Shown: in pieces, positions 1 through 9,609 of the stretch
Numbering within the stretch: position 1 is the stretch's first letter
How the letters are laid out: every line of letters starts with the position of its first letter
Origin: an uncultured delta proteobacterium
GTDB taxonomy: Bacteria; Desulfobacterota; Desulfovibrionia; Desulfovibrionales; Desulfovibrionaceae
Length of the DNA: 50,000 nt
Reading direction: 5' to 3'
Assembly (NCBI GenBank): GCA_903843965.1
Contig: CAIMRY010000010.1
Location: 1 to 50,000, forward strand
Notes under the pieces: model-generated
Seen by the model: the letters and a program-made list of their open reading frames with translations, nothing else
What the model was told of the DNA's origin: nothing
The model's database searches: none
Program-made: the position numbers and the translations under genes

Positions 1-2451
1 GGGACGCCCCACGTCGCTCGGGATCAGGTTGATGATCTTGGTGGCAAAGGGGGTGAAGCGCAGGATGTGCAGCCTGTGGTCCACAAAAACGGTGGCGATG
101 CCTGTGCCAGCCAGCAGATTGCTCATGTCGTTGTTGGCCTGGGACAGGTTCGCCACCTTGGCTTGCAGCTCGTTGTTGACCGTGGCCAGCTCCTCGTTGA
201 CGGATTGCAGCTCTTCCTTGGAGGTTTCCAGCTCCTCGTTCGTGGACTGCGCCTCCTCGTTCAGGGACTGCATTTCCTCGTTGGAGGATTTCAGCTCTTC
301 GTTGGAGGTCTCCAGCTCCTCGATCGTCGCCTGGAGGTATTCCTCCTTGGCCCGCAGCTCCTGTTTAAGTTCCTCGACACTACCTTCAGGGTCTGCACAC
401 AAGGCATGCGTTTCCCCACTGTCATCCGGTACGGCCAGGGTCTGGTTTTTGTCGAGCGCAAGCGCTTCCTCCAGGATGACCATGTACAGGGGCTCTTCAT
501 GGGCCTTGGCGGAACTGGACGCCACCAGGCAGATAGTCAGGTTGACCAGGGTGTAGTGCCCGTTGGTTTTGACGCGCAGGTTCGTGCAGAGCACTATCTC
601 CTTGGTCATCACAGCCTTGTGCAGGGCTATGGTCAATTCGTGCCGGAGTCCTTCGCGGGCCGTCTTTAGGATGTTGTTGATTCCAGCCTCTCCAGGCGCC
701 ATTTCAAGGTACATCCCTGTGCGTCCGTGGAGATAGAAGATGTCGCCTTTGCCGTTGACCAATGCGCCACAAGGCACGACCTGCTGCAAGAGGGTCTGCT
801 CGGCAAGTTCTTTAAGTGACCGTTTTGCAGGGAAGACCGTTTTCCCAGGGGACTGCGGCAACGCCACATTCATGGCGCTCACTGCTGGCAGAAACCGGCC
901 CAGGCCCGCGCGCTGCAAACTGTGTGGTTCCTCTTTGCGCTGGTACAGCTTGAACTTGCGGTCCACCACCCTAAACAGGTCAAGAGCCTCACCCACGTTC
1001 TCCGAGGTGCCCAGAAAGAGAAACCCGCCTAGGTTCAGCGCATAGCAGAACAGGGGCATGAGCTTCTTCTGCAAGTCCCCGCTCAAATAGATCATGAGGT
1101 TGCGGCAACTGATGAGGTCGAGCTTGGAAAAGGGCGGGTCCTTGATCATGCTGTGCTCGGAGAAGACCAGCATGTCGCGGATGCCCTTGTGGATGCGGTA
1201 TGCTTTGCCGCCAGGCTCAAGGGTGAAGAACCGCGTCAGCCGTTCTGGCGAGATGTCCGCCGCGATGCTGGCCGGATAGACCCCAGCCCTGGCCGTGGCA
1301 ATAGCCTGGCTGTCGATGTCAGAGGCGAAGACCTGCACGGTGAAGCTCTGCTTCAGGTGCTCCTGGCGCTCGGCCAGCAGGATGGCCAGGGAGTAAGCCT
1401 CCTCGCCAGTGGAGCAGCCTGCGGACCAGACACGGACCGTGTCGCTGGAGCGCTTGCCTGCAAAGAGCTTGGGGATGACCTCCTCCTCAAGCACGTGGAA
1501 GGCTTCCGGGTCGCGGAAGAAATTGGTCACGCCGATGAGCAGATCGCGGTAGAGCGCTTCCACCTCGGTCGGGGCCTGCTGCGCATACTTCACGTATTCG
1601 CCCATGCTTTTGAGCTGGTGCACGGCCATGCGCCGTTCGATGCGGCGATTGACGGTGCCCGCCTTATACTTTGAAAAGTCATTGCCGGTCTGGGCGCGCA
1701 GCAGGATGAAGAGCTTTTTCAGCGCGTTCTCGTTGTTCGCTTCCGGGACAGCGGTGGTTCCTGGGGGCCTCGTGTAGGCGCGCGAGGCATAGGCCATGAG
1801 CTGGGCGGCCATCTCGGCTGGCGGCAGCTCAAAGTCCACCAGCCCGGTACCCAGAGCGCTGCGGGGCATGCCGTCGTACTCGGTGGAGGCGGGGTTCTGG
1901 GCCATGACCATGCCGCCCCCGGCCTTGATGGCGCGCACACCGAGTGTGCCGTCACTGCCGGTGCCCGAGAGCACGATGCAGATGGCGCGCTCCTGCTGGT
2001 CCTGGGCGAGGGAGCGGAAGAAGAAGTCGATGGGCATGCGCTGGCCGCGCAAAGCAATGGGCTCCAGCAACTGCAGCGAGCCGTTCAAGAGGGCCATGTC
2101 ACGGCCTGGCGGAATGATGTAGGCGCAGTTGGGCTCGACCACCATGCCGTCCTCAACCTCGCTGACCTTCATGCGGGTGTAGCGTTGGATAAGGTCGGTG
2201 AGGATGCTCTTGTGGTCCGGGGCTAGGTGCTGCACCAGCACAAAGGCCATGCCCGGATCGTCGTCGGCGGGCATGCCAGAGAAGAAGGCCTCGAAGGCCG
2301 CAAGCCCGCCAGCCGAAGCGCCAATGCCAACAATGGGGAAGAGGGCCCGGCCTTCCGGCTGGTTGTGCTGGTCGCTGGAGACTTGTGCCGTATCGGGTGC
2401 GGTCAACGTAGAGGCGACAACCGCCTCAGCAGGCTTGGTGCTCTTCTTCAT
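1..2451 (-). CDS. CheB methylesterase - CheR methyltransferase - PAS fusion protein (5' part; continues past the left edge)
   Basis: Reading leftwards from an ATG at 2451, about 817 codons stay open to the window edge. The CheB-type methylesterase domain comes first, with no receiver in front. It has catalytic Ser46 (GIGASAGG), His75 (VQHLAPDH) and Asp167 (SGTGSDG). A CheR methyltransferase follows, with NFFRDPEAF, the SAM-binding WSAGCSTGEEAYS and LISCRNLMIYL. Next is a long coiled coil built of repeated SNEEL/TNEEL-like heptads, and a PAS-like domain (FVDHRLHILRFT) begins just before the edge. This is the usual order in CheB/CheR-PAS fusions, which often end in further PAS or histidine kinase domains. 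A GAAGGTGAACC ribosome binding sequence supports the start. The gene is separate from the che operon at 16.2-25.3 kb, so it probably serves another sensory pathway. The family call is firm; the C-terminal output is unknown. Confidence 0.93.
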   Translation of the reverse strand, partial: MKKSTKPAEAVVASTLTAPDTAQVSSDQHNQPEGRALFPIVGIGASAGGLAAFEAFFSGMPADDDPGMAFVLVQHLAPDHKSILTDLIQRYTRMKVSEVEDGMVVEPNCAYIIPPGRDMALLNGSLQLLEPIALRGQRMPIDFFFRSLAQDQQERAICIVLSGTGSDGTLGVRAIKAGGGMVMAQNPASTEYDGMPRSALGTGLVDFELPPAEMAAQLMAYASRAYTRPPGTTAVPEANNENALKKLFILLRAQTGNDFSKYKAGTVNRRIERRMAVHQLKSMGEYVKYAQQAPTEVEALYRDLLIGVTNFFRDPEAFHVLEEEVIPKLFAGKRSSDTVRVWSAGCSTGEEAYSLAILLAERQEHLKQSFTVQVFASDIDSQAIATARAGVYPASIAADISPERLTRFFTLEPGGKAYRIHKGIRDMLVFSEHSMIKDPPFSKLDLISCRNLMIYLSGDLQKKLMPLFCYALNLGGFLFLGTSENVGEALDLFRVVDRKFKLYQRKEEPHSLQRAGLGRFLPAVSAMNVALPQSPGKTVFPAKRSLKELAEQTLLQQVVPCGALVNGKGDIFYLHGRTGMYLEMAPGEAGINNILKTAREGLRHELTIALHKAVMTKEIVLCTNLRVKTNGHYTLVNLTICLVASSSAKAHEEPLYMVILEEALALDKNQTLAVPDDSGETHALCADPEGSVEELKQELRAKEEYLQATIEELETSNEELKSSNEEMQSLNEEAQSTNEELETSKEELQSVNEELATVNNELQAKVANLSQANNDMSNLLAGTGIATVFVDHRLHILRFTPFATKIINLIPSDVGRP

Positions 2452-2713
2452 GGTTCACCTTCGTCAAAGGGAGCACCCTCGTTGGTGCTCAACCTCCTGG
2501 CAGTTGTGGTATAGGCAGAGGCTGTAACTACACTGTCTCGGCTAATACTACGTACCTGTGTCCTGTGAAGATGTCGAGGGGCAGCAGGAAACGGGGAGAG
2601 TTAACAATGACGACGTGCTCATACTTTATCTACAGATTGAGTATTGACAATGTGGCAAATTCTTTGCTATCTATTGCTTGCCAGCGAAACACAAACACTT
2701 TCTGGGGGCAAGA
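2452..2713. other. Intergenic region between the CheB-CheR fusion and the island
   Basis: About 260 bases without a convincing gene. The right part is A+T-rich and holds the candidate promoter of the recombinase gene. The left island end probably lies in this stretch, because base composition changes here from the high G+C chromosome to the A+T-richer island. I looked for a copy of the tRNA-Met 3' end here and found none. Confidence 0.4.
2644..2673 (+). promoter_or_regulatory. Candidate promoter of the serine recombinase gene
   Basis: A perfect -35 consensus TTGACA (2644-2649) is followed after 18 bases by a weak -10-like TATCTA (2668-2673). The surroundings are A+T-rich and the gene starts 40 bases downstream. 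The -10 match is imperfect, so the call is tentative. Confidence 0.45.
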
Positions 2714-3391
2714 ATGAAGGCATTTGGCTACATCCGAGTGAGCGGCAAGGGCCAGATTGAAGGCGATGGTTTCCGCCGCCAGGAAGCCGAGATTGAAGCG
2801 TATGCCAAGGCCCACAGGATTGAGGTTGTTCACGTCTACCGGGAAGAGGGTATCTCTGGCACCGCCGATGAAGCCCACCGCCCAGCCTTCCAGGCAATGG
2901 TTGAGGCGATCCTGCGCAACGGCGTACGGACAATCATCGTTGAGGGCCTTGATCGTCTCGCCAGGGAATACCGGATTCAGGAGACATTGCTTGTCTACCT
3001 CGCCTCGAAGGGTATCGAACTTATTGCGGCACGTACAGGTGAGAACGTCACTGAGGCCGTCTTGGCTGATCCGATGAGAAAGGCCCTTGTGCAGATTCAG
3101 GGTGTGTTCGCTGAGCTAGAGAAGGGTTTGCTTGTGAAGAAGCTCCGGGTCGCCAGGGAGCAGAAGCGCGAAGTGACGGGCAAGTGTGAAGGTCGCAAGT
3201 CCGTCTCCGAAGCTGCCCCAGAAGTTCTCGCAGAGGTCCGCCGCCTTCGCCGCACGAAGCCTGGGCAGAAGCAACTGAGCTACGCCAAGATTGCCGAACG
3301 CCTCAACTCCGAAGGTCGGCTTAATCTCAACGGAAAGGCATTCACCGCCACGGGCATTCAGATGATGATCTTCAGGCTCAAGGCAAAGTAA
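2714..3391 (+). CDS. Serine site-specific recombinase (resolvase/invertase family)
   Basis: This 225-residue protein should cut and rejoin DNA at short sites through a 5'-phosphoserine link. Possible roles are resolving dimers or cointegrates of the element, or inverting a segment. The catalytic domain starts MKAFGYIRVS with nucleophile Ser10 and has the active-site D80-R81-x-x-R84 (GLDRLARE). A long helix follows, then a short C-terminal region with AKIAERLNSEGR, which fits a helix-turn-helix. The length suits a small resolvase, not a large serine integrase. I chose the ATG at 2714, behind a GGGGG ribosome binding sequence. An in-frame TTG at 2678 would add 12 unconvincing residues. Base composition matches the island. 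A hairpin terminator follows directly, so the gene is probably transcribed alone. Confidence 0.9.
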   Translation: MKAFGYIRVSGKGQIEGDGFRRQEAEIEAYAKAHRIEVVHVYREEGISGTADEAHRPAFQAMVEAILRNGVRTIIVEGLDRLAREYRIQETLLVYLASKGIELIAARTGENVTEAVLADPMRKALVQIQGVFAELEKGLLVKKLRVAREQKREVTGKCEGRKSVSEAAPEVLAEVRRLRRTKPGQKQLSYAKIAERLNSEGRLNLNGKAFTATGIQMMIFRLKAK

Positions 3392-3418
3392 GTCTGCACT
3401 GATTGCCTCTGACGTAGC

Positions 3419-3446
3419 AAAAGGCCGGAAGTTTCCGGCCTTTTTC
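3419..3446 (+). terminator. Rho-independent terminator of the serine recombinase gene
   Basis: A 12-bp perfect stem, AAAAGGCCGGAA with TTCCGGCCTTTT, encloses a 2-base loop and runs into a T-tract. It lies 28 bases after the recombinase stop. The A-rich left arm means it could also work on the other strand. Confidence 0.85.
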
Positions 3447-3617
3447 ATTATAAGTATGGCGGCTTGCTCTGACGCTAAAGCAACCACATAGGATAAGAAC
3501 TTACTGATCTTGTTCAGCTATTTAAGTTTCTTGCCTTGCTAGTTCCTTGGATTGTGGTACTGTGTCCGCTAGTTTTAAAACACTTTACCGGCTATGGCCG
3601 CCACAGGAGCAAAAGGC

Positions 3618-3773
3618 ATGAACTCTTCCACTCACAAGATTGAAGTTCACAGTTTGGACGTTCTGGGTAACGCTGAAATAGTGGAGACTGACATCAAGGG
3701 CGTTTACACTGAAGTAGCAACCGGAAAAGTCTTCATCGCTGGGCACGATGTCTGCCTAGTTGTGTCGCAATAG
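3618..3773 (+). CDS. Small hypothetical island protein, 51 residues
   Basis: The ORF runs from ATG at 3618 to TAG at 3771-3773 and begins MNSSTHKIEVHSLDVLGNAE. It has an AGGAGCAAAAGGC leader, almost the same as the AGGAGCAAAGTC leader of the ribbon-helix-helix gene downstream. That shared leader is the main reason to think it is translated. The product is hydrophilic, rich in beta-forming residues and lacks a signal peptide or membrane segment. I do not recognise a family. A strong perfect palindrome follows 12 bases after the stop. It could be a small regulator or an antitoxin-like protein, but nothing in the sequence shows this. Confidence 0.5.
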   Translation: MNSSTHKIEVHSLDVLGNAEIVETDIKGVYTEVATGKVFIAGHDVCLVVSQ

Positions 3774-3784
3774 TCGTACACGGA

Positions 3785-3816
3785 CTGACCCTAGCATCTA
3801 CAGATGCTAGGGTCAG
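3785..3816. repeat. 15-bp perfect inverted repeat with 2-base centre
   Basis: CTGACCCTAGCATCT and its exact complement are separated by AC. It lies 12 bases after the 51-residue ORF. No clear T-tract follows, so it is not a typical terminator. It could be a recombinase or repressor binding site, or a cruciform at an origin. Confidence 0.7.
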
Positions 3817-4158
3817 GTCTCGTTATAGACTAAATTTGGCTAAGTGAATTAGCAGGTTGTCAAGCACTCGCCCGCTAGTCTTAGTTAGAGTAGGGCCAGC
3901 GGGCTTTGAGTAAGGTCGCATATTTAAATCGTCTAGGGAGAGTAGGGTCTGCGGGCGAGGTTCAAAAAGTAGGCAGTTTCCGCGTATATAACATATGTGA
4001 AGGCAGAGAATCTCTGCCATAAATACTGCACGTCCATCGGCAGGACAGCATTGCCCATCGGGACCACCGTCAAATTACTTTCCAATCTCATTCCCATGAA
4101 CTGAGCAAACAATGTGATCCGCCCCAGGCTTGTACCAGCCAGGACGGGTCATTCCATT

Positions 4159-4164
4159 TATAAT
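4159..4164 (+). promoter_or_regulatory. Candidate -10 box of the ribbon-helix-helix gene
   Basis: A perfect TATAAT sits 28 bases before the ATG at 4192. No good -35 box lies at the right distance; TTGTAC at 4130-4135 is 23 bases away. The promoter may be weak or need an activator, or the gene may be under autoregulation. Confidence 0.35.
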
Positions 4165-4191
4165 CACCTTTTAACATACAGGAGCAAAGTC

Positions 4192-4530
4192 ATGGCTAGA
4201 AGGGGTTACACGGTTACGTACTACTTGAGCGCTGAGGGTGTCGAGTTTATTGATGCTCAAGCACTTAAGCTCGGCATTTCTAAAAGCAAGGCGATGCAAA
4301 TGTCCGTCGAACTTTGGAAATCCAGTGAAGATTATCTTCTCGAAAGCTTTGGAAAAGAAGTCCCGACCACTGTTGAACTGTTGTCCAGGATGATCGTTTC
4401 TGAGAAGGAAACAAACGCTAAACAGGCGTCCAGAAACGAGAGAGACGCCAACAGGCTTGAGCTTATTGCTCGTGCGGTTGCATCAAATATGGATTCCACC
4501 GAGAAAGCAACCAGCCATGCCCAGGCCTAA
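4192..4530 (+). CDS. Ribbon-helix-helix-like small DNA-binding protein
   Basis: This 112-residue protein begins MARRGYTVTYYLSAEGVEF and continues with LKLGISKSKAMQMSVELW. A short beta strand followed by two helices at the N-terminus is the pattern of Arc/CopG ribbon-helix-helix proteins. The rest is a charged, probably helical tail. In plasmid-type elements such proteins commonly control copy number or help a Rep or relaxase at the origin; that role is inferred here. The ATG at 4192 has a good AGGAG leader. A GTG 26 codons upstream has none. The stop overlaps the next gene by 14 bases, which suggests coupled translation. Confidence 0.6.
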   Translation: MARRGYTVTYYLSAEGVEFIDAQALKLGISKSKAMQMSVELWKSSEDYLLESFGKEVPTTVELLSRMIVSEKETNAKQASRNERDANRLELIARAVASNMDSTEKATSHAQA

Positions 4531-4843
4531 ACCTACGATCGAGACGTACACAGACCTGAAGAAAGCCCTCAGCAGGGTCTTTTACAAGGTCGAAGAGGGA
4601 AAGATAGACGCCAAGATCGGGAACGTATGCGGCTACATTGCACAGATTTTGGCTGGCGTGCTAGCTGGCGACAAAGACTCTTCCGGTCCTAAATTGCCCA
4701 CTCCGCTTGAAGTCTGGGTGCGCGGCATGAATGAATCCAGGGAAGCAAAAGGGTTGCCCAAGGATGAGGTAGGCGGGTCGCACCCCCTCCCTTGTGAACA
4801 CGCACCCCAGGAACCGACCATTAGCAATGGCGTAGCGAAGTAG
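4517..4843 (+). CDS. Hypothetical island protein, 108 residues
   Basis: The protein begins MPRPKPTIETYTDLKKALSR and contains KIDAKIGNVCGYIAQILAGV, an amphipathic alpha-helical stretch. The last 40 residues are polar and probably unstructured. The start lies inside the end of the ribbon-helix-helix gene, and a strong terminator follows, so the two genes form a short operon. I do not recognise a family. The pairing of a small DNA-binding protein with an overlapping second gene could suit copy control, a toxin-antitoxin pair or an origin-accessory pair. No toxin motif is visible. Confidence 0.55.
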   Translation: MPRPKPTIETYTDLKKALSRVFYKVEEGKIDAKIGNVCGYIAQILAGVLAGDKDSSGPKLPTPLEVWVRGMNESREAKGLPKDEVGGSHPLPCEHAPQEPTISNGVAK

Positions 4844-4867
4844 AACTACGCACGCCCCATATACAGC

Positions 4868-4910
4868 CACAAAAGCCCCGGTTGGACAGGTTCCAACCGG
4901 GGCTTTTGTG
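4868..4910. terminator. Strong, probably bidirectional terminator
   Basis: An 18-bp perfect stem, CACAAAAGCCCCGGTTGG and its complement, encloses a 7-base loop. The A-run at the left and T-run at the right make it suitable on both strands. It separates the ribbon-helix-helix operon from rep. Confidence 0.85.
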
Positions 4911-4984
4911 CGTCTGGTGCCTTGGAATAAGTACCTTGTTTCAAAAAGCATCCCCTCAACACACACGAATCACAGGACTTCATC

Positions 4985-6118
4985 ATGCCCAATCACTACC
5001 GGATTACGTTACGTCCTGGGCATATGAAGTGGAGTCCCGTCCCTGCCGTAGGCAGTCGTCTTGAGGACGAGGCGTCTTCGGCTCGTCCTCCCGCGCCGAA
5101 GGCGCGGCTCTTCCCTTCCGCACCAACTCCCGCATATCGCCGCCGCTTGAACTTGCTTGAGTTGCTGAGCGGACTCGCCATTGATGACGCCTTCCTTGTT
5201 ACCCTTTTGTGGGACAAGTCCAAGTATGCGGGCATACTCCCTACGCCAGAGGCCATTGGCAAGATGCGCAATCAGTTTAGCACGGAGTTTCGGCAAACCT
5301 TTCCGAAAGGGCATGGCATCTGGAAGCTTGAGCTTGAGGCAGACAGGAAGGGCGTTCACTTCCACATGATCCTCAATCCTTACGTGGCGCATCCTGACGA
5401 TGCCCAGGTGCTTGAGTTCACCGCATGGGCCAATCGCACCTGGGGCAGAATTGCCAACTCGAAGTGGGATCGTCTGGTCGAAGTTAAACGCGCCAAGCCA
5501 GCCGATCCTGGCTATTTGACACGTATGGACAAGAAGGCATCTGACGCTGCCCTTGTTAGCCACATGGGTAAAGGTCGGACCCACGGCAGGTTTGGCTGCA
5601 AGAACGCCCCAGAACGGCCTACAGAGTGTTTCATGGTTACTTCAGCACAGATGGAAGAGCTTCGCAAAGACATGATCCAAGAGACACGTGGTAAGGCGAG
5701 CTACAGGGGCGGCATTGCAAATCACAGGCATATCGCCAATCTTGAACGTGCCAACTTCGGTTGCCACTTCGGCGTAAGTCTTGAGTTGCACCAAAAGATC
5801 GAAGCAATCTCAAAAGCGCAGAACGTACAGCATGAAGAGGTCGCACAGGTGAAACAAGCGGATCATTCATCCCAGGATCAGTATGCCCAAGCCACTGCGT
5901 TTAGCGGCGCTCTAGGAACGTTCCGCAGGCGCAAGGCATACACTGGCATGGAAAGCTTAACGGAATGCCGTGGCGGTCCCTCTGGGGCAGTTCTATGGGC
6001 CTTTGCGTCCACTGGCAGAGGGCAGGGTTCGGCCCCTGCAAGTCAGCAACCCCACATGGGGGCCACTCACAATATGACCCCACCCTGGCACAGCGCCAAG
6101 CGGCTCAGAGGCCCTTGA
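4985..6118 (+). CDS. HUH-type rolling-circle replication protein (Rep)
   Basis: This 377-residue protein has the HUH metal-binding signature at His125-Phe-His127 (GVHFHMILN). It follows the conserved strand GIWKLELEADRKG. Downstream lie Tyr176 with lysines 182-183 (GYLTRMDKK) and a GKGRTHGRFG block, as in rolling-circle replication proteins of small plasmids and filamentous phages. The likely reaction is nicking one strand at the origin with a covalent tyrosine link. Residues 20-41 are encoded by a run of perfect hairpins and look like low-complexity inserted sequence. The C-terminal 80 residues are poorly structured. The ATG at 4985 has only a weak AGGA leader. The 3' end overlaps the convergent integrase gene by 14 bases. 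Family call is good from motifs; the exact start is less sure. Confidence 0.8.
   Translation: MPNHYRITLRPGHMKWSPVPAVGSRLEDEASSARPPAPKARLFPSAPTPAYRRRLNLLELLSGLAIDDAFLVTLLWDKSKYAGILPTPEAIGKMRNQFSTEFRQTFPKGHGIWKLELEADRKGVHFHMILNPYVAHPDDAQVLEFTAWANRTWGRIANSKWDRLVEVKRAKPADPGYLTRMDKKASDAALVSHMGKGRTHGRFGCKNAPERPTECFMVTSAQMEELRKDMIQETRGKASYRGGIANHRHIANLERANFGCHFGVSLELHQKIEAISKAQNVQHEEVAQVKQADHSSQDQYAQATAFSGALGTFRRRKAYTGMESLTECRGGPSGAVLWAFASTGRGQGSAPASQQPHMGATHNMTPPWHSAKRLRGP
5043..5107. repeat. Cluster of three adjacent perfect hairpins inside the rep reading frame
   Basis: The hairpins are CTGCC-GTA-GGCAG (5043-5055), GAGGACGAG with CTCGTCCTC around a 10-base loop (5063-5090), and CCGCGCC-GAA-GGCGCGG (5091-5107). 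An alternative hairpin TCGTC-TTGAG-GACGA (5056-5070) overlaps them. The block is much more G+C-rich than the island around it. It may be a mobile palindromic unit that entered rep in frame, or the origin that Rep nicks. Confidence 0.75.
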
Positions 6119-7841
6119 TGTAAGCGCTTTCCGCAAGGTGCCCCAGGTCAACGCCAAGATTGACCCTCAGGACAATTTCAGCGTACAGCATGTCAGGTGG
6201 TGTTTCGTGCTCATAGTGAGCAGCCATTCCTTCGGCTTCGTGCCCGATAAAGTCATCCATCAAGTTCTTTGGTAGTAGCGACCGCTTGCAAGCTGTCTTG
6301 AAGTTATGTCTGAATGAGTGGAACACTTTGCGTTCGTTCTTTCCCGTCTTCCTGACTCCAATACTCTTCAGGTAATCGCCAAACCAACGTGATAGTGCCG
6401 CAGCAGGTTCGTCCCGTATTTGCTTGAGAGTGTAGAATACGCGCGTTTCACCACTTGATTTTACGCGTTCGATAAACTTTGAGAACTTCAAGACATCAAT
6501 CAAGAACGGATGCAGTGGGACAATCCTTATGCTTGCTGCTGTCTTGACCCTTTTGGTTTCTTCTTCGTTGATGTCCAGAACCCATACACCACTCGGTAGT
6601 TGCCTTACGTCCTCTGTACGAAGCTGAGCTAATTCACCTGCGCGTGCCCCCGTGAAATGTCCCAGAAGAGGCATCCAGAAACGCCAAGGCATTTTCCCGG
6701 CTTTCTCGCTCATGTAGAGGTCCGAGTTGAAGAGTGTCATAAGCCCGTCCGCTGGAATAAGATCATAGCGCGACTCTCGGACGCTCTTGCGAACTCGAAC
6801 ACCTTTCTTGTCAGCATAATTCTGAGCGACATGCCCATGATTAACAGCCCAAGTAAGAAATGCACCTACTTTGCCTAAGCAATCACTGGCTGTCTTTTCA
6901 GAAACCCGCTCTTCGGCAGGAAACTCTATGACAAGAAGCTGTTGGATGCTTTTCTCCCGGAGATGCGCTTTCTTGCTTCTGTGGGCGGGGAGTCTCCGGC
7001 AACTCTCGCTGAATGTGCTCAAATGGACATGCCCAAGCTCTTGCGCTGGCATATCACCGACGATCTCCATAAAGAGCTTTAAGGCATCTCTATAGGCGAC
7101 CAAAGACCGAGGGGCGAGTGTTGGCTTACTGTGCTCCAGGTATGAGGCAACCAGCGAAGAAAGCTGCGGTCCACTTTGCTTGGGCTGGACCGCGACCGGC
7201 TCGGCTTTTTGGGGTGCCGCGTACATGTCCTGCATGTCGGCTATGTGCTTCGTTTCGCTGCCCTGGTCCCCTTCAGAGCGCGCCTGGAGGGCCTGGAAGT
7301 ACGGCAGGAGCCCCTTGGCAACTTCACGGCGCACAGCGGCGTACTCTGGTGTTCCTGCCACGGGAAGTTCAACATCCTTCATACTGCCGTCAAGGGCAAC
7401 TAAAGCAAGGGCAGTTTCGGTTGCGCCTTCAAGCTCTCGTAGCGGGCCTGCCTGGAATTGACCTCCCAGGATGTTCTTGAGCGTGGCGATCTCACTGCGG
7501 TAGTCCGTCCATCGGGAATCGGGCGAAGGGTGCGCACGGTCCTTTTCATCATCGGACAGCCAACGGGCCAACGTATACTGGACATAGGGCTTGATTTGGT
7601 CAGGAGTGAGCTTGCTCAAGTCGCCTCGCCTCGCTTGGTTGAATATCTGGGCAACCCCTAGGCCAACGCTGAGGGCCTTTTTGCGTGCTAATCTCAAGTC
7701 GCCGGTTCGCAGCGTAAGGTATATCTCCCGCTGCCCCAGAATGGGCTGGATTTTGACAGGCACATGCTGCCTAAACCAGTAGCGCCCGGCGTTCAAGCAA
7801 AGGTGTGATGCGGCGGTCCGCAACGTGCGCTTGCGGGGCAT
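6105..7841 (-). CDS. Tyrosine recombinase / phage-type integrase of the island
   Basis: This 578-residue protein should integrate and excise the island. The C-terminal catalytic domain shows Arg400 (TGARAGEL), His508-x-x-Arg511 (HSFRHNF), His534 (IGHEAEG) and nucleophile Tyr543 (HYEH). A SAM-like core-binding domain lies before it, near residues 230-350. The N-terminus (CLNAGRYWFRQHVP) resembles the short domain at the start of many long proteobacterial integrases. I chose the ATG at 7841, seven bases after AAGGGGG, over the adjacent GTG at 7844. The gene's 5' end lies 143 bases from tRNA-Met, a common arrangement for islands inserted by tRNA genes, but the tRNA's own terminator lies between them. 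The 3' end overlaps rep. Confidence 0.92.
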   Translation of the reverse strand: MPRKRTLRTAASHLCLNAGRYWFRQHVPVKIQPILGQREIYLTLRTGDLRLARKKALSVGLGVAQIFNQARRGDLSKLTPDQIKPYVQYTLARWLSDDEKDRAHPSPDSRWTDYRSEIATLKNILGGQFQAGPLRELEGATETALALVALDGSMKDVELPVAGTPEYAAVRREVAKGLLPYFQALQARSEGDQGSETKHIADMQDMYAAPQKAEPVAVQPKQSGPQLSSLVASYLEHSKPTLAPRSLVAYRDALKLFMEIVGDMPAQELGHVHLSTFSESCRRLPAHRSKKAHLREKSIQQLLVIEFPAEERVSEKTASDCLGKVGAFLTWAVNHGHVAQNYADKKGVRVRKSVRESRYDLIPADGLMTLFNSDLYMSEKAGKMPWRFWMPLLGHFTGARAGELAQLRTEDVRQLPSGVWVLDINEEETKRVKTAASIRIVPLHPFLIDVLKFSKFIERVKSSGETRVFYTLKQIRDEPAAALSRWFGDYLKSIGVRKTGKNERKVFHSFRHNFKTACKRSLLPKNLMDDFIGHEAEGMAAHYEHETPPDMLYAEIVLRVNLGVDLGHLAESAYIKGL

Positions 7842-7895
7842 CACCGTGCCCCCTTCAAGCGTAGCCCCAGAAGCCTAGCCGGGACCACTTTGGGG

Positions 7896-7910
7896 TACAA
7901 TGTTGGGGTC
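7896..7910. repeat. 15-base near-repeat, copy 1 (integrase side of tRNA-Met)
   Basis: TACAATGTTGGGGTC matches GACATTTTTGGGGTC at 8128-8142 in 12 of 15 positions, in the same orientation. A second TTGGGGT lies just before it (near 7890). Such repeats could be integrase arm-binding sites, but the match is short. Confidence 0.3.
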
Positions 7911-7940
7911 TTTTGCCGAAACAAGCCTTCTAGGGCTTTG

Positions 7941-7973
7941 AAAAAGGAAAACCCCCTGCCTGAGCAGGGGGTT
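7941..7973 (-). terminator. Terminator of tRNA-Met
   Basis: A 10-bp perfect stem (AACCCCCTGC with GCAGGGGGTT) encloses a 4-base loop just after the tRNA 3' end. On the minus strand it is followed by TTTTCCTTTTT. Confidence 0.85.
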
Positions 7974-7983
7974 AGGATACGCT

Positions 7984-8060
7984 TGGTAGCGAGGGAGGGA
8001 ATTGAACCCCCGACACTGCGGATATGAGCCGCATGCTCTGACCGACTGAGCTACCTCGCC
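7984..8060 (-). tRNA. tRNA-Met (anticodon CAU)
   Basis: The 77-base gene folds as a full cloverleaf, with the 3' CCA encoded. The 5' end is GGCGAGG and the anticodon loop is CTCATAT. The T arm contains GGTTCAATTCC. The acceptor stem ends with a G-U pair at position 1-72. The CAU anticodon fits elongator methionine; an isoleucine tRNA with modified C34 cannot be fully excluded, because that depends on TilS recognition. Confidence 0.93.
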
Positions 8061-8248: not shown

Positions 8249-8440
8249 ATGACAACCGTGATTCCTCAAAGCGAACTCACTAAACGCGCCATTGACTGGA
8301 TCTGCGAGCAGCAGGCCGCCCTGGACAATCCTGCCGCCCGGCGCACGGCCATTGAGAAGGCCGCCGTGCGCTTCAACCTGGGCCCCCTGGACGTGGAATT
8401 CCTTGAGCGCTTCTTCACTGGCGAAGCAGAAAACGGATAA
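8249..8440 (+). CDS. Small hypothetical protein before lptF, 63 residues
   Basis: The ORF begins MTTVIPQSELTKRAIDWICE after an AAAGGAGAG leader, so the start is well supported. The product is hydrophilic and looks fully alpha-helical, with no membrane segment or known motif. It ends five bases before lptF, which suggests co-transcription and perhaps coupled translation. Its base composition is that of the chromosome, not of the island. I know no function; a small regulator or adaptor of the downstream genes is only a guess. Confidence 0.7.
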   Translation: MTTVIPQSELTKRAIDWICEQQAALDNPAARRTAIEKAAVRFNLGPLDVEFLERFFTGEAENG

Positions 8441-8445
8441 CATCC

Positions 8446-9609
8446 TTGAAGATCGTTCACCGCCAAATATTCAAGGAACATCTTTCGCTGTTCCTGCTCA
8501 TCGGCTCATGCCTGCTGGGTCTGATCCTGGTGGGCCGCATGCTCCAATTGCGCGAGATGCTGCTCTCCCAGAACCTGGGCGTGTTTGATGTCCTGCGCCT
8601 GTTCTTCTACTTAAGCCCGGTGTTTCTGCTGCTGCTCACGCCCATCGCCTGCATGCTCAGCATCTTCCTCACCTTCCTGCGCATGAGCGCGGACCGTGAG
8701 CTCACCGCGCTCAAGGCCAGCGGCATGAGCCTGTACCAGCTGCTGCTCGCGCCCATCGCCTTCGGCACGCTGTGCACGCTCTTCAGCCTGTACATCGGCC
8801 TTTTTGGCCTGTCCTGGGGCATGGAGCACTTCAAGCACTCCCTGCTCGAATTCGCCCGGACCAAGACCAAGCTCTCGCTGCAGTCCGGCGTGTTCAACCA
8901 GGAATTCCCGGGGCTGACCATCTACGCGCAGAAGGTCAACCTGGAGACCGGCGACATCAGGTTCGTCTTTGTGCAGGACAAGTCCAACAAGGGCTTCACC
9001 ACCACGGTCGTCGCGCCCGAGGGCTCGGTGACCACGGATTCGGAAAAGGAGCAGATCAAGGTCGTGTTCCACAACGGCCGCATCTACCGGCGCGTGGGGG
9101 AGACTCTCGACATCTTGAACTTCGGAAGTTATGCTGTACGGTTGCCCTTGGGCAATATGCTGCAAAGCATGGGCTTTGAGCGCACCTCGCCCAAGGAGCT
9201 CTCCTTCGCCAAGCTGTTGGAGTACGATTCCGACCCGGAGCTGATGAAGGAGTTCGACCAGACGCGCCAGCTCAAGGTCAAGGTGGAGATCCAGAAGCGC
9301 CTGGCCCTGCCCCTGGCCTGTCTGGTTCTTGGCCTGTTCTCGGTGCCGGTGGCCTGCGTGTTCCACGCCTTCAAGCAGCAGCAGGGCATTGTTCTGGCGA
9401 TGGTGGTCTTTCTGGTCTATTATTCGCTGCTCTCCGTGGCCGAGAGCCTGGGGGAATCGCAGCTCGTTCCCCCATACATCGGCGTGTGGCTGCCCGACCT
9501 GCTGTTCCTGGGCGCTGGCCTCACGTTTCTGCGCCAGGCCGTGCGCGAGCGCGTGCCCTCCAGCGTGCTCTGGGCGCTGCAGAAGCTGAACGTCAGGAGC
9601 GCGGCATGA
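8446..9609 (+). CDS. lptF: Lipopolysaccharide export permease LptF
   Basis: This 387-residue protein belongs to the YjgP/YjgQ family. In the LptB2FG ABC transporter it extracts lipopolysaccharide from the inner membrane and passes it to the periplasmic bridge. Hydrophobic segments lie near residues 15-35, 50-80 and 100-125, and three more lie at the C-terminal end after residue 285. Between them is a periplasmic beta-rich domain (for example GLTIYAQKVN and EGSVTTDSE) typical of the family. The start is a TTG at 8446, chosen because MKIVHRQIFKEHL is the usual LptF N-terminus. The stop overlaps the lptG start by four bases (ATGA), so the pair is translationally coupled. Assignment to LptF, not LptG, rests on gene order and on the N-terminal pattern. 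Confidence 0.9.
   Translation: MKIVHRQIFKEHLSLFLLIGSCLLGLILVGRMLQLREMLLSQNLGVFDVLRLFFYLSPVFLLLLTPIACMLSIFLTFLRMSADRELTALKASGMSLYQLLLAPIAFGTLCTLFSLYIGLFGLSWGMEHFKHSLLEFARTKTKLSLQSGVFNQEFPGLTIYAQKVNLETGDIRFVFVQDKSNKGFTTTVVAPEGSVTTDSEKEQIKVVFHNGRIYRRVGETLDILNFGSYAVRLPLGNMLQSMGFERTSPKELSFAKLLEYDSDPELMKEFDQTRQLKVKVEIQKRLALPLACLVLGLFSVPVACVFHAFKQQQGIVLAMVVFLVYYSLLSVAESLGESQLVPPYIGVWLPDLLFLGAGLTFLRQAVRERVPSSVLWALQKLNVRSAA

Follow-up and report, generated by a model that had tools for sequence, protein, structure and literature searches.

We focus here on an A+T-richer block near the left end of a 50,000-nucleotide stretch of DNA from an uncultured member of the Desulfovibrionaceae (hereafter the window: positions 1 to 50,000 of contig CAIMRY010000010.1, our C10, in assembly GCA_903843965.1, which comprises 46 contigs and 3.56 Mb). 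This block is probably the core of a small, helper-dependent integrative element, in which a tyrosine integrase would move the element, an HUH rolling-circle Rep would copy it and a small serine recombinase would resolve its multimers. The proposal is built on four observations, namely the gene content of the block, its tRNA context, the catalytic motifs of its enzymes and the recurrence of the same set in repeat-bounded elements elsewhere. Relatives are referred to below by our handles for loci (L) and genomes (G). The features that carry the argument are as follows.

2714..3391, plus strand: small serine recombinase of the resolvase/invertase type, 225 aa, with a YIRVS motif (Pfam Resolvase, 3.2e-27; PHROGs 95 and 125).
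4985..6118, plus strand: HUH rolling-circle Rep, 377 aa, with HFH at residues 125-127 and the motif III tyrosine at Tyr177 (alignments A1 and A3).
6105..7844, minus strand: tyrosine recombinase (integrase), 579 aa, with an N-terminal DUF6538 domain (Pfam, PHROG and motifs).
7984..8060, minus strand: tRNA-Met (CAT), the presumed integration target (ARAGORN, Rfam), with its 3' end (7984) facing the integrase.

An earlier note on this DNA had described an A+T-richer block holding a serine recombinase, an HUH Rep, a large tyrosine integrase and three small proteins, and both parts of that description are borne out, the first by composition (GC 0.533 in 2640-7983 vs 0.611 in 1-2452 and 0.666 in 8061-50000) and the second by open reading frames (ORFs), Pfam and PHROG matches and motifs. 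The tRNA-Met gene at 7984-8060 is an addition to it. From left to right, the serine recombinase is followed by the three small ORFs and the Rep, and then by the integrase, which is convergent with the Rep. All three enzymes are full-length with their catalytic motifs. The integrase matches Pfam DUF6538 (5.6e-12) and Phage_integrase (2.4e-9) as well as PHROG integrases (1.6e-25), and has both the GxRxxE and the HxxR motif; the start of its gene faces the tRNA-Met gene, and an intact tRNA adjoining an integrase fits an attachment (att) site at the tRNA 3' end. The Rep itself scores below the curated cut-off of Pfam REP_ORF2-G2P (E 0.0064, 17.2 bits vs 27.8), a family that is matched by all nine members of alignment A1 at E<=0.1, with a best value of 3e-10. 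Among 26 aligned Reps, H127 is kept in every one, and H125 and Tyr177 in 23 each.

The recurrence of the set was followed through the Rep. With the window Rep as query, nine of 199 genomes matched in a search of the family, the window's own included; a class-wide profile search gave 27 matches in 26 of 348 genomes, again including the window and all in the same family, of which 26 were used (G192, a short weak match with no Rep ORF there, was omitted). Phylum-wide, five of 395 genomes matched: the window's, G068 of the same family, G637 of another family (5.1e-40, on a contig that ends just past the Rep) and two borderline cases at about 1e-3. A scan of genome_contigs returned two loci, both already in the set (L160 and L161). 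A serine recombinase lies near the Rep, at 48-1593 bp from it, in nine of the 26 loci (the window, L012, L015, L017, L143, L144, L147, L149 and L158); the product of the random-placement fractions is 7e-13, a rough figure that assumes independent loci, which they are not. L016 was left uncounted, its contig ending 160 bp past the Rep. The remaining 16 loci are without a serine recombinase in the stretch fetched, and many fetched stretches stop before the far end of the element; 14 of these 16 have a tyrosine-integrase match, mostly of about 350 aa, and of the other two, L010 and L157, neither has more than a marginal one.

Exact direct repeats of at least 17 bp, with one copy at a called tRNA, flank the Rep in ten of the 26 loci, the window not being among them, and L017 has a 24-bp direct-repeat pair without a called tRNA. 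Six of the nine serine-recombinase loci are closed by direct repeats in this way (L012, L015, L017, L143, L144 and L147), five of them at a called tRNA: tRNA-Phe for L012, tRNA-Met for L015, tRNA-SeC for both L143 and L144, and tRNA-Thr for L147. The exact runs measure 17-42 bp, those of L015 being adjacent runs of 42 and 27, and the six closed elements span 5,123-11,470 bp, each with a Rep, a serine recombinase and a tyrosine integrase. The integrase of L015 is split into two open frames, and that of L147 is of a different, smaller type and lies at the end opposite the tRNA. In ten of the 11 repeat-bounded elements the GC content is lower inside the element than outside it, the exception being L015. 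This same L015 occupies the tRNA-Met that corresponds to the window's, with lptF, lptG and engB on the same side as in the window (gene names by eye), and no other single observation argues as strongly that the window set moves as a unit and targets this tRNA. The search for the same gene set elsewhere, which the earlier note had called for, thus found serine recombinase, Rep and tyrosine integrase together in six repeat-closed loci. The note's suggestion of an integrating mobile element stands in so far as these relatives, which hold the same three kinds of enzyme, make the set one mobile unit; for the window itself no left end was found. Two unrelated insertions, one bringing the Rep and one the integrase, are rejected, since the repeat-bounded relatives hold all three enzymes.

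Four steps of movement and copying, and the carriage of the CheB-like gene to the left of the block as cargo, are what we infer from this arrangement. First, the tyrosine integrase would recombine the element into and out of the tRNA-Met 3' end; this is the best-supported step and a very likely one. Second, the HUH Rep would nick the excised circle and start rolling-circle replication, which its motifs make reasonably likely. Third, the serine recombinase would resolve multimers, whether these come from homologous recombination, from tandem integration or from copying as a rolling circle. Multimers of SGI1 are removed when its resolvase is restored (in the parts of PMC12217951 drawn on here), and by this analogy multimer resolution is the most economical role for the enzyme, with about an even chance of being the right one. 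Finally, because recognised transfer and virion genes are missing, the element would move with a helper, either a phage or a conjugative element that accepts its nicked origin. In relatives the spare room is taken up by cargo, sometimes by defence genes.

As the earlier note had observed, no capsid, transfer or partition genes are visible: of the block proteins scanned (six against PHROGs and NCBIfam, seven against Pfam), none matches a transfer or partition family and none matches a capsid family convincingly, and the one weak PHROG match of the Rep, to internal virion protein phrog_308 (E 0.02), is taken as chance. Nor did these scans return a match to relaxase, coupling or mating genes, to AlpA, primase, packaging or capsid-remodelling genes, or to a Zot-type ATPase or coat genes. 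No recognised defence gene lies in the window core.

The cargo of relatives was sampled with 20 chosen proteins, not an exhaustive set, drawn from L016 and the eight serine-recombinase loci besides the window; 16 of the 20 matched Pfam at 0.01, one of them below cut-off, and seven of ten matched PADLOC. Defence-type cargo lies inside two of the six closed elements: L017 carries a cytosine methylase, Vsr, HNH, HEPN and ankyrin proteins, and L147 a cytosine methylase and a UvrD/PD-DExK protein, with PADLOC calling methylases and a GajB-like helicase for the two, the helicase being that of L147. The cargo of three others is not obviously defence, comprising DUF4238 (L012), DUF3825 (L143) and DUF6731 with acetolactate decarboxylase (L144), and L015 carries two proteins without any match. 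Beside the core in loci without repeat-defined ends are a NotI-like restriction enzyme and a methylase in L158 (type II enzymes by PADLOC), Cas7 in L149, to which PADLOC adds Cas8c and Cas3, and a RES-domain protein in L016. At L149 and L164 (G334:C1, about 1.466-1.478 Mb), a serine recombinase and a degenerate Rep stand beside Cas8c, Cas7, Cas3 and a large integrase, and a repeat array there looks CRISPR-like by eye; this is possibly a CRISPR-Cas system riding on such an element.

The other features of the block and its surroundings are the following.

1..2452, minus strand: CheB/CheR-type gene (named by eye), truncated by the contig start; G029 has a gene about 90% identical to it.
2632..2640, no strand: end of homology to the CheB flank of the nearest relative (G029), the presumed core edge (sequence comparison).
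3594..3773, plus strand: 59-aa ORF without a family match (PHROGs, NCBIfam, Pfam).
3774..4191, no strand: mostly non-coding stretch with a palindrome and repeats, a candidate origin or recombination site.
4192..4530, plus strand: 112-aa protein, weak match to PHROG 3887 transcriptional regulator (E 0.022).
4517..4843, plus strand: 108-aa protein, nothing above curated cut-offs (PHROGs, NCBIfam, Pfam).
4868..4910, no strand: hairpin with a 19-bp perfect stem and a 5-nt loop, not called by the terminator scan.
7950..7973, minus strand: intrinsic terminator just after the tRNA-Met gene (terminator scan).

The 112-aa protein may be ribbon-helix-helix-like, judged by eye, and relatives of it were sought in the scanned loci of Rep relatives with none found. 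Between the first two small ORFs, at 3785-3816, lies a perfect 15-bp palindrome with a 2-nt spacer and no T run, and 23-nt repeats lie at 3882 and 3934 of the same mostly non-coding stretch. This palindrome is the single candidate for a res site near the serine recombinase gene; because no palindrome of its type occurs in the nine other elements scanned, its function is a guess, as is the role of 3774-4191 as an origin or recombination site, and a search for a conserved res or origin motif across the elements found none. In L017, three 111-bp direct repeats with a spacing of 216-217 bp lie between the Rep and the serine recombinase (8363-8906). The hairpin at 4868-4910 is probably a terminator ahead of the Rep. 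As for the called terminator after the tRNA-Met, the scan found three such sites, compared with a mean of 6.4 after shuffling; of 11 genus loci, seven have a similar stem after the tRNA-Met and the other four (L069, L070, L071 and L073) a different one.

Several points weigh against the proposal, some of which concern the ends. No second copy of the att sequence (the tRNA 3' end) occurs in the window, nor in the assembly with up to two mismatches. The contig starts inside the CheB-like gene, which leaves the outer end of the element out of view, and the remainder of that gene was not found elsewhere in the assembly. A closed left end at 2632 was considered and rejected: the window matches its nearest relative, G029, at 90% identity as far as base 2632, where the similarity breaks off, but no repeat marks the site. 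In G029 the CheB-like gene lies on a stretch that has no collinear match in the window genome and that carries a primase-like gene and an integrase of its own; because of this non-collinear island the gene looks accessory, and it may be cargo of a longer element in the window genome. At 117-368 the CheB-like gene has repeats with a 21-base period, which probably code for a coiled coil; its matches in G182 and G175 likewise reach a contig end within the gene. A further gap concerns the transfer-messenger RNA (tmRNA) gene, which directly follows the tRNA-Met in three near relatives and is matched in 11 of 15 genus genomes searched; it was sought in the window genome and none was found. A second search gave ten matches, all below the family cut-off and taken as tRNAs, and its control also rings in archaea, so that such low matches mean little. 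The missing tmRNA is probably an assembly gap, perhaps left of base 1, and because the tmRNA is absent the missing far end is tentatively taken as an assembly gap too, a reading that is unproven; that the far end may lie in such a gap is also suggested by the contig starting inside a possible cargo gene.

Divergence is another point on this side. In a pairwise comparison of ten loci (L015 represented by the C-terminal piece of its integrase only, L158 without integrase and L069 without Rep), the window Rep is 21-27% identical to the eight others compared (and, in a separate alignment, 31% to L010), the window integrase 24-32% to its relatives, and the window serine recombinase 27-43%, its nearest relative being L158 of the same genus. 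Furthermore, integrases have been exchanged between elements, judging by L149, whose integrase shares 67-71% identity with the integrases of L143 and L144 and whose Rep shares only 28-29% with their Reps. Also to be counted here are the structure models of the Rep, of low confidence for both the window (mean pLDDT 39) and L161 (mean pLDDT 52), which makes the fold searches weak: the best PDB match of the low-confidence L161 model is the AAV Rep origin-binding domain (E 0.012, with none at E<=0.001), and IS608, IS200 and REP-associated transposase appear lower down among many unrelated matches. Finally, no Rep relative was found in viral_contigs with five Rep queries, nor in phage and plasmid records with two queries each, in searches that reach close relatives only.

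Among the alternatives, the one that survives best is a special case of the helper-dependent element, namely a phage satellite of the PICMI/I55 kind, in which a helper phage would induce and package the element and the Rep would make the concatemers. The size of 5-11 kb, the tRNA target, the lack of recognised capsid genes and the defence cargo of some relatives all agree with it, as do PICMI115, of 6,110 bp and seen as a concatemer (PMC10803314, in the parts drawn on here), and I55, which a jumbo phage mobilises and whose gene set includes restriction-modification, an inovirus Gp2-like protein and a tyrosine integrase (PMC12595487, likewise in part). Two phage-related observations also count towards it: ORF2/G2P proteins from records of tailed phages are among the hits of the low-confidence fold search (E 0.075 and 0.14), and the L010 Rep, the one most identical to the window's, has portal and terminase genes nearby. 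Set against these are the want of any AlpA, primase, packaging or capsid-remodelling match in the scanned window proteins and of any relative in viral_contigs, and a resolvase would presumably counteract concatemers. A satellite is an option to be taken seriously, if short of an even chance. The L010 locus (G164:C57, 10030-16267) deserves a mention of its own, with a Rep about 29-31% identical to the window's, beside tRNA-Ala and with no integrase in view.

It is unlikely that the block is instead a decayed remnant, an old element that is missing its outer end, can no longer move and lies next to a CheB gene with no connection to it. A missing second att copy is what such decay would leave, and relatives do show damage, with the integrase of L015 split in two open frames and the Rep degenerate in three loci; the three window enzymes, on the other hand, are full-length with catalytic motifs, and the missing end coincides with the contig start. 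More doubtful still is a second special case of the helper-dependent element, in which the HUH Rep would double as a relaxase and the circle would be carried as a mobilizable element by a resident conjugative system. HUH chemistry is common to Reps and relaxases, which counts in its favour. MOBT relaxases are moreover related to Rep_trans proteins (in the parts of PMC11389934 drawn on here); this Rep, however, belongs to the ORF2/G2P family, and the scanned window proteins include no relaxase, coupling or mating match.

A different proposal takes the serine recombinase and the Rep as a recurring two-gene module, perhaps assembled repeatedly, in which a full-length Rep without nicking chemistry, as in L147/L149 and L158, may now serve as a DNA-binding partner by which the serine recombinase is directed or regulated; the window would then represent the starting state. 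H125 and Tyr177 are both lost in the Reps of L147, L149 and L158, all loci with a serine recombinase, so that three of nine linked Reps lack the first histidine and the tyrosine vs none of 16 unlinked ones; L147 and L149 are sisters, and the losses therefore amount to about two independent events, too few for a firm linkage to the serine recombinase. These motif-deficient Reps are nonetheless full-length (L147:9377-10294, L149:9090-10052 and L158:2456-3568). In the Rep tree, one group unites seven serine-recombinase Reps and L016 with support of 92/84, slightly short of its star; the window and L158 are placed elsewhere with weak support, long branches making the placements unsure. The serine-recombinase label changes four times on the tree as drawn, and the well-supported branches force at least two changes. 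More than one origin of the linkage is thus likely, the alternative being one origin with losses. As a whole, the module is an improbable account; if true, a replication initiator would have turned into a recombination factor, and the degenerate Reps in any case raise a testable question of exaptation.

Least probable is the remnant of a filamentous phage (inovirus) that kept a G2P-type Rep and gained recombinases: the Rep family is REP_ORF2-G2P, and six of the 26 Reps match PHROG "replication initiation protein" and three "rolling circle initiation" (the window Rep matching none at 0.01), but no coat or Zot-type match appears in the proteins scanned, window and cargo alike. An IS607-type transposon was also tried and rejected, the serine recombinase scoring 36.6 against a cut-off of 110, with no TnpB-type match in the seven Pfam-scanned proteins.

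A helper-dependent element with the three enzymes as its core would matter for several reasons. For many genomic islands no means of movement is apparent, and this family, scattered among sulfate-reducing bacteria, is small enough, at 5.1 kb for its smallest repeat-bounded member, to define a minimal helper-dependent island that can cut, copy and probably resolve. It would also be one route for the spread of restriction genes, and perhaps of CRISPR-Cas genes, within the Desulfovibrionaceae.

Islands that depend on a helper, sit at a tRNA or tmRNA gene and carry defence cargo are already a known kind of element, and no description of the present gene combination in Desulfovibrionaceae was found in searches of the open-licence literature. 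One close comparison is L069, at the tmRNA of the nearest relative (G029:C12, 1938-9279), which shares a large integrase of the DUF6538 type by homology and has two similar, divergent serine recombinases; it differs in that a helicase/primase-like gene replaces the HUH Rep, a swapped replication module. SGI1 has a different replication protein and is much larger than the window element. Like the element proposed here, it is an integrating island with an integrase, a serine (Tn3-like) resolvase and plasmid-like replication as a multicopy circle, the circle being only inferred for the window; SGI1 differs in its target, trmE, where the window element lies beside tRNA-Met, and is mobilised by IncA/IncC plasmids (PMC12217951, in part). 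PICMI, from Vibrionaceae, is similar in its size of about 6 kb and its minimal set for excision and replication, forms rolling-circle-like concatemers and protects against other phages; it sits beside fis and uses AlpA, primase and iolg, whereas the window element is at tRNA-Met without an AlpA or primase match, and the parts of PMC10803314 drawn on here do not mention an HUH Rep or a serine recombinase. The I55 islands of Pseudomonas (PMC12595487, as far as its main text goes, in which the words "resolvase" and "serine" do not occur) are larger, one shared region alone being about 18 kb, target tmRNA where the window element is beside tRNA-Met, and often have AlpA, YqaJ and RadC, of which AlpA has no match in the window. 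They agree with the present family in having a tyrosine integrase and an inovirus Gp2-like protein, in their direct repeats at a gene for a stable RNA, in carrying defence cargo, restriction-modification included (as in some of the relatives), and in lacking recognised transfer genes (PMC12595487). The earlier note had held that the set matches no standard element known to it; the combination is indeed unusual, but its logic has a precedent in SGI1 and in the I55 islands.

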